Positions 5,069 to 9,470 of a stretch of DNA of 64,000 bases are shown here, piece after piece. The stretch spans positions 3,596,001 to 3,660,000 of the forward strand of contig NZ_JBBHKA010000001.1 in the NCBI RefSeq assembly GCF_037572775.1, read 5' to 3'. Both the position numbers and the translations under genes were made by a program. The DNA is from Ramlibacter sp. PS4R-6 (GTDB lineage: Bacteria; Pseudomonadota; Gammaproteobacteria; Burkholderiales; Burkholderiaceae_C). The notes beneath the pieces were generated by a model, which did no database searches, was not told the origin of the DNA, and was given only the letters and a program-made list of their open reading frames with translations. The number at the start of each line of letters is the position of its first letter. The first letter of the stretch is position 1.

Positions 5069-6066
5069 CGGTCGGGCCGCAGCGGCGCGGGCGCGGTGAG
5101 GTCGTAGAGGCCGACCTGCCGCAGGGGCTTTGAATCCGCGGGTGCCTCCGAATCGGGCACCGTCACCAGGTGGCTGCGCGTGCTCGGCTCGTTCGGGGCG
5201 CGCGCGGCCCGCTTCGGGTTGGAGGTGATGCTGCCCACGAAATAAAGCGCGGCCAGTTCGCGGGCCAGGCGCGCGTCGTCCATCCCGCAGCGCTGCATCA
5301 GGTCGGCAAACGTGCCCGGCGCGAGCACGAGCTCGCGCATGACGAGCAGGTGCGAATCCTTCAGCAGGCTTTGCGGCAGGCGGGGCGCGCGACGGAAGTA
5401 CAGCAGGCCGGTGCGGTAGTGGCGGGGCAGCACGTCGCGCTGCGTGCGCAGCGCGTACTGCCACATCAGTTGCGACAGGCTCGAGTGGACGAAGTTCTCC
5501 GGCATCGGCCCGCCGGCCGCGCGCGACCACACCGCTTCCTCGAAATCCGCGGGCCCGGCGGTGCCGCGCACGGCGGCGTCGCCGTGCATGTCGACCACGG
5601 CGAGCAATTCCGAATTCACGCGCAGCTCGAACTGGCCCGCACCCAGGGCCGACTGGTGCTCCACGACGTGCGACGCCAGGCAGAACTGCGCGACGACCGG
5701 CGCGAACCACGCGTCGAACTGCTGCAGCACCGCCTTCATCGTCCCCGGCGCCTCCAGGTTGAACTTGCAGCGCGCCTCGACGCCAGGCGGCACCGGCTCG
5801 GCGAAGGCGACCGGCCGGTCGATGTCCGGCAGGTGCATCTGCAGGGCGTGGGCCGTGGGGATGGCGGGTGCGACCCGGATGCGACCGCCGCCCACCGATT
5901 GCGTGCGCGCGCCGTTCAGCCACCAGGCGTCGGCGTTGTCGGCGTCGCCGACCTCCCACGTGGCGGCCTCCCCGGCACCGGAATGCAGCACCCGCTCGAT
6001 GGCCTGCTGCTCGTCCGACGCAAACCCGGCGATACCCAGCCGGAAGGTAGGAAGCTCGTTGTTCAT
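5065..6066 (-). CDS. Hypothetical protein
   Basis: 333 residues, family not recognised. The N-terminal part (LGIAGFASDEQQAIERV) looks like a compact alpha/beta domain. The C-terminal third (about 240-300, around LLVMRELVLAPGTFADLMQR) looks helical and could be a winged-helix-like fold. There are no transmembrane segments or signal peptide. It overlaps the 3' end of mpl by four bases, convergently, and lies downstream of DAHP synthase on the same strand after a 60-base gap. Codon use and GC match the neighbours, so I take it as a real gene. Confidence 0.7.
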   Translation of the reverse strand: MNNELPTFRLGIAGFASDEQQAIERVLHSGAGEAATWEVGDADNADAWWLNGARTQSVGGGRIRVAPAIPTAHALQMHLPDIDRPVAFAEPVPPGVEARCKFNLEAPGTMKAVLQQFDAWFAPVVAQFCLASHVVEHQSALGAGQFELRVNSELLAVVDMHGDAAVRGTAGPADFEEAVWSRAAGGPMPENFVHSSLSQLMWQYALRTQRDVLPRHYRTGLLYFRRAPRLPQSLLKDSHLLVMRELVLAPGTFADLMQRCGMDDARLARELAALYFVGSITSNPKRAARAPNEPSTRSHLVTVPDSEAPADSKPLRQVGLYDLTAPAPLRPDR

Positions 6067-6126
6067 GTTGCGGCTTGAAAAGCCAGCAACAAATATACGC
6101 CTCTAGTTACTTTTTGCAAAACTCCG

Positions 6127-7239
6127 CTAGCTGCGGCGCTTCTTGACTGCGCCCGCCAGGATCTCCAGCGCCTGCAGGGAATCGTCCCAGCCGAGGCATG
6201 CGTCGGTGATACTTTTGCCGTACTCCAGCTTCTGGGGATCGTCCTTGCCCGGCGTGAACTTCTGCGCACCGGCGTGCAGGTGGCTTTCGATCATCACGCC
6301 GAAGATGGAGCGCGATCCGCCCGCAACCTGCGTGCCGATGTCGCGCGCCACCTCGACCTGGCGCTGGTGCTCCTTGTTGCTGTTGGCATGGCTGCAGTCG
6401 ACCATCAGCACCGGCGGCAGCTTGGCGGACTGCAAGTCGCGGCACGCCGCATCGACGCTGGCCGCGTCGTAGTTGGGCGTCTTGCCCCCGCGCAGGATCA
6501 CGTGGCAGTCCTTGTTGCCGTTGGTCTGCACGACAGCCACCTGCCCGTTCTTGTGGACCGACAGGAAGTGGTGCCCGCGCGCCGCGGCCTGGATTGCGTC
6601 GGTCGCGATGCGGATGTTGCCGTCGGTGCCGTTCTTGAAGCCGATGGGCGCCGACAGGCCCGAGGCGAGCTCGCGGTGCACCTGGCTCTCGGTCGTGCGC
6701 GCGCCGATGGCGCCCCAGGAAATCAGGTCGCCGATGTACTGCGGCGAGATCACGTCGAGGAATTCGCTGCCCGCCGGCAGCCCCAGGCGGTTGATGTCGA
6801 TGAGCAGGTTGCGCGCGATGCGCAGGCCCTCGTCGATGCGGTAGCTTTCGTCGAGGTAGGGGTCGTTGATCAGGCCCTTCCAGCCCACCGTCGTGCGCGG
6901 CTTCTCGAAGTACACGCGCATCACGACTTCGAGAGTGTCGGCGTACTTGGTGCGAACGTCCTTCAGCCGCCGCGCGTAGTCCAGCGCGGCCGACGGGTCG
7001 TGGATCGAGCACGGCCCGATGATCACCAGCAGCCGGTCGTCCTTGCCCTGCATGATGTTGTGGATCGCCCGGCGCGTGTGGGTGATCAGGCTCTCCACCG
7101 GCGTGCCCCGGATCGGGAAGAACCGGATCAGGTGCTCGGGCGGGGGCAGCACGGTGATGTCCTTGATGCGCTCATCGTCGGTCTCGCTGGTCTTGTCGAC
7201 CGGGTGGGACAGCCAGGCATCGGCGGTGGTGGCATTCAT
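6127..7239 (-). CDS. aroG: 3-deoxy-7-phosphoheptulonate (DAHP) synthase, class I
   Basis: 370 residues from the ATG at 7239, which has CAGGAG about ten bases upstream. An in-frame TTG at 7263 falls in the attenuator T-run and is unlikely. Class I AroG/AroF/AroH motifs are present: GPCSIHDP, GARTTESQ, GFKNGTDG and the HANSNK segment. It condenses phosphoenolpyruvate and erythrose-4-phosphate, the first step of the shikimate pathway, in the cytosol. A leader peptide rich in Phe plus a terminator lie directly upstream, so expression is probably controlled by attenuation. The feedback type (Phe, Tyr or Trp) is not certain from protein sequence; the leader argues for Phe. Confidence 0.95.
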   Translation of the reverse strand: MNATTADAWLSHPVDKTSETDDERIKDITVLPPPEHLIRFFPIRGTPVESLITHTRRAIHNIMQGKDDRLLVIIGPCSIHDPSAALDYARRLKDVRTKYADTLEVVMRVYFEKPRTTVGWKGLINDPYLDESYRIDEGLRIARNLLIDINRLGLPAGSEFLDVISPQYIGDLISWGAIGARTTESQVHRELASGLSAPIGFKNGTDGNIRIATDAIQAAARGHHFLSVHKNGQVAVVQTNGNKDCHVILRGGKTPNYDAASVDAACRDLQSAKLPPVLMVDCSHANSNKEHQRQVEVARDIGTQVAGGSRSIFGVMIESHLHAGAQKFTPGKDDPQKLEYGKSITDACLGWDDSLQALEILAGAVKKRRS

Positions 7240-7261
7240 GGTTCTTCGGGCTCCTGAAAAC

Positions 7262-7288
7262 AAAAAACCGCCGGGTTGGCCGGCGGTT
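7262..7288 (-). terminator. Attenuator terminator upstream of DAHP synthase
   Basis: On the minus strand the arms AACCGCCGG (7288-7280) and CCGGCGGTT (7274-7266) form a perfect 9-bp stem with a 5-base loop. The last two stem Ts run on into more Ts, giving TTTTTT at 7267-7262. This is a textbook intrinsic terminator, but it sits 23 bases before the aroG start, not after a gene. The 5' arm can instead pair with CCGGCGG in the leader (plus-strand positions 7337-7343), giving a 7-bp antiterminator. Confidence 0.85.
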
Positions 7289-7323
7289 CGTTGAGGTGTG
7301 TGACGCGTTTTCTTCGGGTACGG

Positions 7324-7395
7324 TCAGCTCTCTCTTCCGCCGGTGGGATGGAGATGCCAAAAATACGCAAAGAAAAACGCGAAACGCGAAATCAT
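7324..7395 (-). CDS. Aromatic (Phe-rich) leader peptide of the aroG attenuator
   Basis: A 23-codon reading frame begins at ATG 7395 and stops at TGA 7326-7324. Residues 4-13 read RFAFFFAYFW: five Phe, one Tyr and one Trp in nine codons, closely resembling the pheA leader peptide of enteric bacteria. The antiterminator strand falls in codons 18-20, just past the aromatic codons. A ribosome stalled for lack of charged tRNA-Phe would leave that strand free; a ribosome reaching the stop would mask it. No clear ribosome-binding site precedes the ATG. A -10-like TACATT lies only six bases upstream (plus 7402-7407), so either translation is leaderless or the promoter lies further back. Confidence 0.8.
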   Translation of the reverse strand: MISRFAFFFAYFWHLHPTGGRES

Positions 7396-7427
7396 GGGGG
7401 CAATGTAGCACAAAGGCCGCACGGCCA

Positions 7428-8003
7428 CTAGAGCCGCAGCTTCTTCCACCACTGCAAGGCGCGCTGCACCTGCGGCTCCGGCAGCGAGCCGAGCGTGGAT
7501 TGGTCCTTGGATTCGCTGGCGAGCCACTGCTCGTACATGTCGATCAGCAGCATGCCTTCGCCCAGCGTGCGCCACGCCACCAGCTCGAAGTCTTCCGCCG
7601 TCAGCAGCAGCTGCTGGCTGCGCGGGCCGCCGTCCAGCAGCCACTGCCCGATCAGCACGCGGAAGTTGTTCAGGGCCTGCAGGTAGGCCGCGTACTCGTA
7701 GAGGCCGCGCCAGGGCAGGCCCAGGTTCACCACGAGGTTGCGGTGCCCGCGCAGCACCGTCAGCAGGTCCACCAGCATCGGCGCGATCGTCGTGCGCACG
7801 CGGTCCACGCGCAGCGCCGCGATGATGGCCTCGATGTGCACCGACAGCTGCGCCATGCTCTCAGACAGCTGGCGGCTGTCCTCGTCGGCGACCGCGCCGC
7901 GCAGGAAGTTCGACAGGTCGCCGAACGTGTTGATGCTCGGCATGTGCGTCGTCGGATGGCGCCGGAGGCGCGAATTCGGCGACGACGAGCCGCTGGTGTC
8001 CAT
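7428..8003 (-). CDS. Hypothetical protein
   Basis: 191 residues from ATG 8003; a second in-frame ATG at 7943 is possible. Not recognised as a named family. The sequence is predicted mostly alpha-helical, with regularly spaced hydrophobics (for example TIAPMLVDLLTVLRGHRNL) and no membrane segments or signal peptide. It lies six bases after tldD on the same strand, so it is probably cotranscribed with it. The aroG leader begins 32 bases downstream. Confidence 0.65.
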   Translation of the reverse strand: MDTSGSSSPNSRLRRHPTTHMPSINTFGDLSNFLRGAVADEDSRQLSESMAQLSVHIEAIIAALRVDRVRTTIAPMLVDLLTVLRGHRNLVVNLGLPWRGLYEYAAYLQALNNFRVLIGQWLLDGGPRSQQLLLTAEDFELVAWRTLGEGMLLIDMYEQWLASESKDQSTLGSLPEPQVQRALQWWKKLRL

Positions 8004-8009
8004 CTCGCG

Positions 8010-9470
8010 CTAGGCCGTGCCGCCCACCGTCAATCCGTCGATGCGCAGCGTGGGCTGGCCCACGCCGACCGGGACGCTCTGCCCCTCCTTGCCGCAGGTG
8101 CCCACGCCCGTGTCGAGCGCCATGTCGTTGCCGATCATGGTCACGCGCGTGAGCGCGTCGGGGCCGTTTCCCACGATGGTCGCGCCCTTCACGGGGTACT
8201 GCACCTTGCCGTTCTCGACCCAGAAAGCCTCGCTGGCCGAGAACACGAACTTGCCCGAGGTGATGTCCACCTGCCCGCCGCCGAAGTTGGTTGCGTACAG
8301 GCCCTTCTTCATGCTGGCGACGATTTCATCGGCCGGCTTGTCGCCGCCGAGCATGTAGGTGTTGGTCATGCGCGGCATGGGGATGTGCGCATAGCTTTCG
8401 CGGCGGCCGTTGCCCGTGGGCGCGACGCCCATCAGGCGGGCATTGAGCGTGTCCTGGATGTAGCCGCGCAGGATGCCGTCCTCGATCAGCACGGTGCGCT
8501 GCGTCGGGTTGCCTTCGTCGTCCACGTTCAGCGAGCCGCGGCGGTCGGAGAGCGTGCCGTCGTCCAGGACCGTCACGCCCTTGGCGGCAACGCGCTTGCC
8601 GACGCGGCCGGAGAAGGCGCTGGAGCCCTTGCGGTTGAAATCGCCTTCCAGCCCGTGGCCGATGGCTTCGTGCAGCAGGATCCCCGGCCAGCCGGGGCCG
8701 AGCACCACGGTCATCTCGCCCGCGGGCGCGGGGCGCGACTCGAGGTTGGTCAGCGCCGCCTTCACGGCATCGTCGACGTACTCGTCGATCTTGCCGTCGT
8801 CGAAGTAGGCCAGGCCGAAACGCCCGCCGCCGCCGCCGGTACCCATCTCGCGCCGGCCGCCCTGCTCGGCGATCACCGTGACCGACAGGCGCACGAGCGG
8901 GCGCACGTCGGCGGACAGCGTGCCGTCGGCGCGCGCGACCACCACCACGTCGTACTCGCTCGCCAGGCCCGCCATCACCTGCACGATGCGCGGGTCCTTG
9001 GCGCGGGCACGCTTCTCGGCGCGCTCGAGCAGCTGCACCTTGGCCGTGCTGTCCAGCGTGGCGATGGGGTCGATCGCGCCGTAGAGCGAACGACCGCCCG
9101 CGATCTTCTTCTCGCCGACGCGGGCGCGGCCCTGCCCGCCGGCGGCACCGATGGTGCGCACGGTGCGCGCTGCGTCGAGCAGCGACGCCTCGCTGATGTC
9201 GTCGGAATACGCGAAGGCCGTCTTCTCGCCGCTGATGGCGCGCACGCCCACGCCGGTGTCGATGCTGAAGCTGCCGGTCTTGACGATGCCTTCTTCCAGG
9301 CTCCAGCCTTCACTGCGCGTGTACTGGAAGTACAGGTCGGCGTCGTCGACCCGGTGGGCCGTGATCTCGGCCAGCGCGCGCGCCAGGTGCGTTTCGTCCA
9401 GGCCGAAGGGTTCGAGCAGCAGGCGCTGGGCGGTGGCCAGGCGCTCGAGGGTGGGTTCGCGGGAAATCAT
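8010..9470 (-). CDS. tldD: Metalloprotease TldD
   Basis: 486 residues, the normal TldD length. The zinc motif HEAIGHGLEGD lies at residues 267-277 (HExxxH at 267-272), and the C-terminal cysteine of the metal site is in GVGTCGKEG. TldD works with TldE (PmbA) as a heterodimeric cytosolic protease that unfolds and degrades peptides, including modified antibacterial peptides and the CcdA antitoxin. The partner gene is not in this window. The small gene downstream is separated by six bases. Confidence 0.95.
   Translation of the reverse strand: MISREPTLERLATAQRLLLEPFGLDETHLARALAEITAHRVDDADLYFQYTRSEGWSLEEGIVKTGSFSIDTGVGVRAISGEKTAFAYSDDISEASLLDAARTVRTIGAAGGQGRARVGEKKIAGGRSLYGAIDPIATLDSTAKVQLLERAEKRARAKDPRIVQVMAGLASEYDVVVVARADGTLSADVRPLVRLSVTVIAEQGGRREMGTGGGGGRFGLAYFDDGKIDEYVDDAVKAALTNLESRPAPAGEMTVVLGPGWPGILLHEAIGHGLEGDFNRKGSSAFSGRVGKRVAAKGVTVLDDGTLSDRRGSLNVDDEGNPTQRTVLIEDGILRGYIQDTLNARLMGVAPTGNGRRESYAHIPMPRMTNTYMLGGDKPADEIVASMKKGLYATNFGGGQVDITSGKFVFSASEAFWVENGKVQYPVKGATIVGNGPDALTRVTMIGNDMALDTGVGTCGKEGQSVPVGVGQPTLRIDGLTVGGTA

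Follow-up and report, generated by a model that had tools for sequence, protein, structure and literature searches.

A very probable ribosome-mediated attenuator, with a leader rich in Phe, Tyr and Trp codons, upstream of the DAHP synthase gene aroG

The DNA that precedes aroG, the gene of a type I DAHP synthase, was analysed within a stretch of 64 kb, further referred to as the window. Judged from its sequence, the element found there is with high probability a classical ribosome-mediated transcription attenuator that controls the DAHP synthase gene. Comparison with related loci established that the small reading frame, the terminator, the alternative pairing and the spacing of these parts are conserved, and the preliminary description of this DNA, which had proposed an attenuator of this kind, was right in its core, the overall geometry being conserved as well. 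The parts of the element are as follows (coordinates of the window, all on the minus strand):

8003-7428 and 7239-6127, minus strand: the 191-aa ORF and the DAHP synthase gene, between which the aroG attenuator region lies (from the sequence)
7410-7402, minus strand: putative extended -10, TGC-TACATT, 6 nt before the leader ATG (from the sequence)
7395-7324, minus strand: leader ORF MISRFAFFFAYFWHLHPTGGRES with its stop, 23 codons, ATG at 7395, TGA at 7326-7324
Codons F5, F7-9, Y11, F12 and W13 of the leader, minus strand: putative control codons (from the sequence)
7351..7354, minus strand: tentative segment 1 (UCUC), with a possible partner GAGA (7334-7331 or 7332-7329) just past segment 2
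7343-7337, minus strand: segment 2, putative antiterminator strand CCGGCGG, within the leader ORF (from the sequence and from pairing with segment 3 in relatives)
7280..7289, minus strand: segment 3, terminator 5′ arm GAACCGCCGG, predicted also to pair with segment 2 (from the sequence, the terminator scan and covariation)
7265..7274, minus strand: segment 4, terminator 3′ arm CCGGCGGTTT, followed by the T-run (from the sequence, the terminator scan and covariation)
7289-7265, minus strand: predicted intrinsic terminator GAACCGCCGG-CCAAC-CCGGCGGTTT, followed by T's
6127..7239, minus strand: aroG, type I DAHP synthase of 370 aa, ATG at 7239, the predicted regulated gene (TIGR00034 match)

The assignment of the downstream gene rests on a match of 534.1 bits to TIGR00034 (aroFGH), for which the cut-off is 173.2. 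The leader frame carries five Phe codons, one Tyr codon and one Trp codon clustered in codons 5-13, exactly as had been described, and no other ORF of 10-45 codons in the 64 kb reaches 7 aromatics per 10 codons; ten Markov-simulated windows contained no ORF of such density. The terminator and its T-run are likewise present, at 7289-7265, although the distance between the stem and the aroG ATG is 25 nt and not the 23 that had been claimed. The terminator scan found one terminator vs. a mean of 0.4 in shuffled sequences, and the fold of the leader RNA (7395-7240) has a z-score of -4.17, none of 200 shuffles being equally stable. The 191-aa ORF (7428-8003, minus strand), for which no NCBIfam match was obtained, sits between tldD and the attenuator, and in several relatives the end of a tldD-like frame was seen by eye directly upstream of the attenuator. 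Another small ORF of the window, with 6 aromatics per 10 codons, lies at ~698 on the plus strand.

From this arrangement we infer the response to amino acids, the stalling of the ribosome and the termination as follows. Transcription would begin at the leader ATG or beside it, and the ribosome would translate the leader with its many aromatic codons. A shortage of charged Phe-, Tyr- or Trp-tRNA would stall it between codons 5 and 13, and segment 2 (CCGGCGG) would remain available for pairing with segment 3 (CCGCCGG); the 2:3 pairing would block the 3:4 terminator, and aroG would be transcribed. When the aromatic amino acids are sufficient, the ribosome would reach the stop codon and cover segment 2, the terminator would form, and termination would then fall ~25 nt before aroG.

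The aroG loci were collected by an AroG protein scan of contigs from one genome per species, and since only the best 80 of at least 595 stretches were kept, the close set of 81 loci (these 80 and the window) leans to near relatives. The aromatic-rich leader and the terminator are present upstream of aroG in 72 of the 81 and absent in 8, the remaining locus (L030) having only 4 bases upstream. The loci where they were not found are L058, L059, L060 and L062 in Polynucleobacter, L063 and L074 in Cupriavidus, and L079 and L082; in the four Polynucleobacter and two Cupriavidus copies the missing leaders appear to be losses. Two loci labelled Polynucleobacter, L042 and L045, retain the leader. Loci L048 and L080 are a record labelled Solimonas, with the leader and an AroG 79% identical to that of the window, and a MAG labelled Bordetella parapertussis; both labels may be doubtful.

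The 72 close leaders (alignment A1) were used to build the covariance model R1, which in the window's own genome scored 86.5 bits at this site and 18.7 bits at the next match. This genome encodes two more type I DAHP synthases (L002, L003) and a KdsA (L004). On either strand of L002 and L003 no small ORF with at least 4 aromatics in 10 codons starts in the first 1700 bases, and at L004 a single chance-like aromatic frame lies on the opposite strand. In the window's family, R1 gave matches at an E-value of 1e-6 in 194 of 200 genomes; counted by genus, it matched in 137 of 141. Within the order, matches of full length and at least 45 bits were obtained in 45 of 200 genomes, the window's included, and in 14 of 51 sampled families; a class sample of 274 genomes gave, beyond 3 of the window's family, two genomes with a full match (both in family f63) and one with a partial match. 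Genome G644 carries two partial R1 matches (L123, L124). A DAHP synthase follows at all 47 R1 places that were checked, i.e., the 44 other matches of the order, a weaker order match in G181 (35 bits) and the two of f63. Leader and terminator were called in 46 of them, the place in G181 (L140) falling below the aromatic threshold. Two of these 46 duplicated earlier leaders, and the 116 distinct leaders comprise 72 close and 44 distant ones.

A second model, R2, was built from 52 leaders (alignment A2) that came in part from the order matches, so that its recovery of these matches, within the 49 of 200 genomes hit in the order sample at an E-value of 1e-5, is by construction. The class sample gave two full matches in f63 and one weak match of 32 bits, and the phylum sample gave matches in 36 of 299 genomes. 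Outside the class there are 17 full-length matches in three families (f244, f247, f251), and a fourth family has a single partial match; these families presumably belong to Alphaproteobacteria. Nine of the 17 were examined and all nine precede a DAHP synthase (56-60% identity), with leaders of 4-6 aromatics per 10 codons, e.g., MITVATSYFWYFSYDSLLAAGGSRSI. Altogether 18 R2 places were examined and 11 have a DAHP synthase (the nine outside the class and two of f63); none was found at the other seven (L160, L162-L167), all below 40 bits. The element is also seen on a plasmid, pPAN2 of Paracoccus pantotrophus, where the leader MPCTVSFYWFRYPAEPGVARTAR (or a frame with an upstream start; 5 aromatics in 10) and a terminator stand before an annotated DAHP synthase. 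No leader or terminator was found within ~230 nt upstream of a plasmid DAHP synthase of Variovorax paradoxus, and the search of plasmids with the window's leader region returned only a piece of aroG coding sequence in one record.

The geometry of stalling was followed by folding of RNA that was masked to a point 12 nt beyond the A-site codon. In the window the 2:3 pairing forms with the ribosome at codons 5-15, the aromatic run being codons 5-13; it hardly forms at codons 2-4 (at most 1.6 expected pairs), and it is lost from codon 16 on (at most 0.3) and in the free RNA. Once the terminator is transcribed in full, equilibrium favours it whichever codon of the window's leader the ribosome stalls at (P 0.94-0.98), and the order of synthesis must therefore be assumed. 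Among the 65 close loci with GGCGG, the permissive stretch contains 264 of 284 Phe codons, 99 of 105 Tyr codons and 57 of 59 Trp codons vs. 313 of the 999 other codons, and it ends 0-2 codons past the last aromatic codon in 60 of the 65. The coverage of segment 2 by a ribosome at the stop codon is built into the model. In a shuffle control the freed segments paired with the terminator arm over at least 5 bp in 379 of 720 cases, vs. 72 of 72 real ones, and because this control cut its weight the stall folding serves here for geometry only. The UUCUC/GAGAG pairing of segment 1 recurs by eye in A1 and is not part of the RNAalifold consensus; since the free RNA already forms 2:3 at 21 of the 65 loci, a 1:2 hairpin is not general.

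It may be asked which of the three amino acids is sensed. Phe codons occur in all 72 close leaders, Tyr codons in 69, Trp codons in 61 and all three in 60; for the 44 distant leaders the counts are 44, 41, 25 and 24, respectively. It is plausible, as far as codon content can tell, that Phe, Tyr and Trp are all sensed by a single element. It is also quite possible, if somewhat short of an even chance, that the attenuator is specific for Phe and that the Tyr and Trp codons contribute little. Phe residues outnumber those of Tyr and Trp in the close leaders (311, 116 and 64), and Phe alone is found in every leader of both sets. The Phe codon TTT makes up 195 of 311 in the leaders vs. 131 of 608 in the aroG genes that they precede, its fraction being higher in the leader at 68 of 72 loci. 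For the Tyr codon TAT the corresponding numbers are 48 of 116 vs. 141 of 578, with a higher fraction at 40 of 69 loci. The excess of TTT is partly a general codon shift, given that 710 of 1114 non-aromatic leader codons end in G or C vs. 20342 of 24654 codons in aroG, and the preference for TTT possibly reflects tuned decoding. The presence of a codon is moreover no proof of sensing, because the Corynebacterium AroR leader, with Phe-Tyr-Phe, was reported, in an excerpt of the source, to respond to limitation of Phe and not of Tyr (PMC11802643). On the other hand, Tyr is retained in 69 of 72 close and 41 of 44 distant leaders, the Tyr and Trp codons lie as tightly within the permissive stretch as those of Phe, and DAHP synthase feeds all three products. 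Among the three, Phe would most likely be the amino acid that matters.

The preliminary description had proposed a check of relatives for conservation of the frame and covariation of the stems, and there the frame is kept, the terminator shows compensatory changes and the antiterminator is maintained by pairing. In A2, 97.4% of the pair cells of the terminator are standard and three pairs are changed on both sides; RNAalifold on the 72 close leaders gave the terminator alone, with a negligible covariation term (-0.06). The segment CCGGCGG at 7337-7343 is present as had been described, complementary to CCGCCGG of the terminator 5′ arm, and this pairing is kept across the relatives. Its GGCGG core stands in frame 0 in 54 of the 116 leaders, in frame 2 in 48 and in frame 1 in 5, and is missing in 9 (49, 15, 1 and 7 of the 72 close leaders), and the endings of the peptides follow the frame: GGRE, PAEE, AAGE or LAEE. 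In the 107 leaders that have the motif, the base before it and its partner in segment 3 are C-G in 52, T-A in 19, C-A in 6, T-G in 5 and other combinations in 25 (Fisher p 2e-9, uncorrected for kinship); 77 of the 107 are standard pairs, and 16 of the 30 misfits are A-G. The same position in the 52 sequences of A2 is C-G in 16, U-A in 15, U-G in 1 and unpaired in 20. When the helix is slid, 17-51% of the A2 cells are paired; over the entire 2:3 helix it is 87.4%, which is barely above shuffles (19 of 500 as high). Double changes number 15 vs. 8.5 in shuffles, none of 500 being as high, and they sit in only one pair. In Paracoccus the two strands are CCAGCGG (segment 2) and CCGCTGG (segment 3), with both partners changed together, as seen by eye, at a position that hardly varies elsewhere. 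The retention of GGCGG in three frames, together with the partial covariation with the terminator, indicates that the antiterminator is conserved as RNA and not as peptide.

These frame shifts also bear on the idea that the leader is a TnaC-like arrest peptide, which would sense a free aromatic amino acid through the nascent chain instead of a shortage of tRNA. The peptide is rich in aromatic residues and a GGRE-like ending is common in the close set; yet this ending reflects a single RNA motif that is translated in different frames, the aromatic positions accept exchange among F, Y and W, and several leaders stop right after GG, and we regard arrest of this type as very improbable. Hardly credible is another explanation, that the small frame is due to chance and the hairpin merely terminates an upstream gene (the 191-aa ORF or tldD): an intergenic hairpin on the same strand is unremarkable in position, and the scan count is 1 vs. 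an expected 0.4, but frame and terminator recur in 72 of 81 loci together with the antiterminator strand, the start spacing recurs in 66 of 72, the upstream gene varies (a tldD-like end in several relatives, another ORF in the window), and simulation yielded no such ORF in any of the ten windows.

A consensus promoter scan gave no sigma-70 site at the leader, and the -10 thus rests on positional conservation. In 66 of the 72 close loci the distance from the end of a -10-like hexamer to the leader ATG is 6-8 nt; the ten other 3-nt gap windows that were tried gave 0 or 1 of 72 each. The hexamer is preceded by TGn in 65. A Shine-Dalgarno-like sequence stands before 2 of 72 leader ATGs vs. 52 of 71 aroG starts. 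In the distant set the 6-8 nt spacing is found in 17 of 44 leaders (0-3 in the other windows), or in 21 of 44 when gaps of 5-9 nt and other in-frame starts are allowed, and no Shine-Dalgarno-like sequence was found before any of the 44; the Paracoccus leader is preceded by GGAGG. On these grounds of position the aroG leader RNA is probably leaderless and starts at or next to 7395. The earlier suggestion of a leaderless transcript agrees well with the close set, where both the -10/ATG spacing and the missing Shine-Dalgarno sequence fit, and less well with the distant one (17 of 44).

Two further leaders of similar appearance were noticed among the R2 places. At L160 (G749, family f63; minus strand, ~2059-2191) a frame VLVLITQPTGAGRASV and then a terminator precede an ORF, presumably that of ketol-acid reductoisomerase, and the whole has the appearance of an attenuator for branched-chain amino acids, built in the same way as that of aroG. 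At L163 (G117, same order as the window; minus strand, ~2030-2168) an aromatic-rich leader MVTFSVVYNVYFYWYRSSGGAKGC and a GC-rich hairpin stand before a 204-aa ORF, for which no DAHP synthase match was found.

Searches for an existing entry were made in Rfam 15, where positions 6000-9000 of the window gave only sroD (24.1 bits, gathering threshold 50) and AaHKsRNA41 (19.2 bits, gathering threshold 97), both far below threshold, and 16 related loci gave no match. A literature search at the level of titles and starts of abstracts returned no description of this element, an earlier prediction being possible (Vitreschak 2004; Panina 2001), and the excerpts available of PMC1262725, PMC2965389 and PMC10219788 do not describe it. 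We give an even chance to the wider proposal that the element represents an uncatalogued proteobacterial family of attenuators at the entry of the shikimate pathway, which would combine a leaderless mRNA, an OR gate for shortage of Phe, Tyr or Trp by means of mixed codons, and an antiterminator that is kept while its frame shifts between lineages. DAHP synthase is the step that commits carbon to the aromatic amino acids as a whole. Its control would fall to a cis-acting RNA in almost every sampled genome of the family, in 14 of the order's families and in some Alphaproteobacteria. The attenuator yields a rule on shikimate control that can be put to the test in these bacteria, and it is a natural example of an attenuator that is probably leaderless and carries codons for three amino acids; the covariance model may be used for annotation.

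The mechanism, and even the type of target, have precedents, and it is apparently the wide family that is uncatalogued. In E. coli the pheL-pheA, pheST and trpL systems consist of a leader peptide, a 2:3 antiterminator and a 3:4 terminator, start from a Shine-Dalgarno sequence and respond to one amino acid each. The element of the window shares with them the leader peptide and both alternative structures, whereas the E. coli systems act on different genes, with one amino acid apiece. In an excerpt of the source these three are given as attenuators, and the DAHP synthase genes of E. coli as controlled by aromatic amino acid-binding repressors (PMC11802643). For two Vibrio species a further source tabulates putative attenuators ahead of aroA(I-alpha)-tyrA (PMC1173090, Table 7); they likewise are predicted before a type I DAHP synthase gene, but, as far as this table goes, they are listed from a database, with neither leader nor sensing described, and the gene order differs. 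The trpL of Sinorhizobium meliloti is described as leaderless, its RNA starting with the ATG of the leader ORF (PMC7298713), as would be the case in the window, yet it is a Trp attenuator before trpE(G). The aroR-aroF attenuator of C. glutamicum has a leader with Phe and Tyr codons before a DAHP synthase operon (Neshat et al., 2014, cited in PMC11802643). It resembles the element of the window in this leader and in that stalling raises transcription there, and it differs in that it belongs to another phylum and its leader is described with Phe-Tyr-Phe only, the likeness being drawn from the description in that excerpt.
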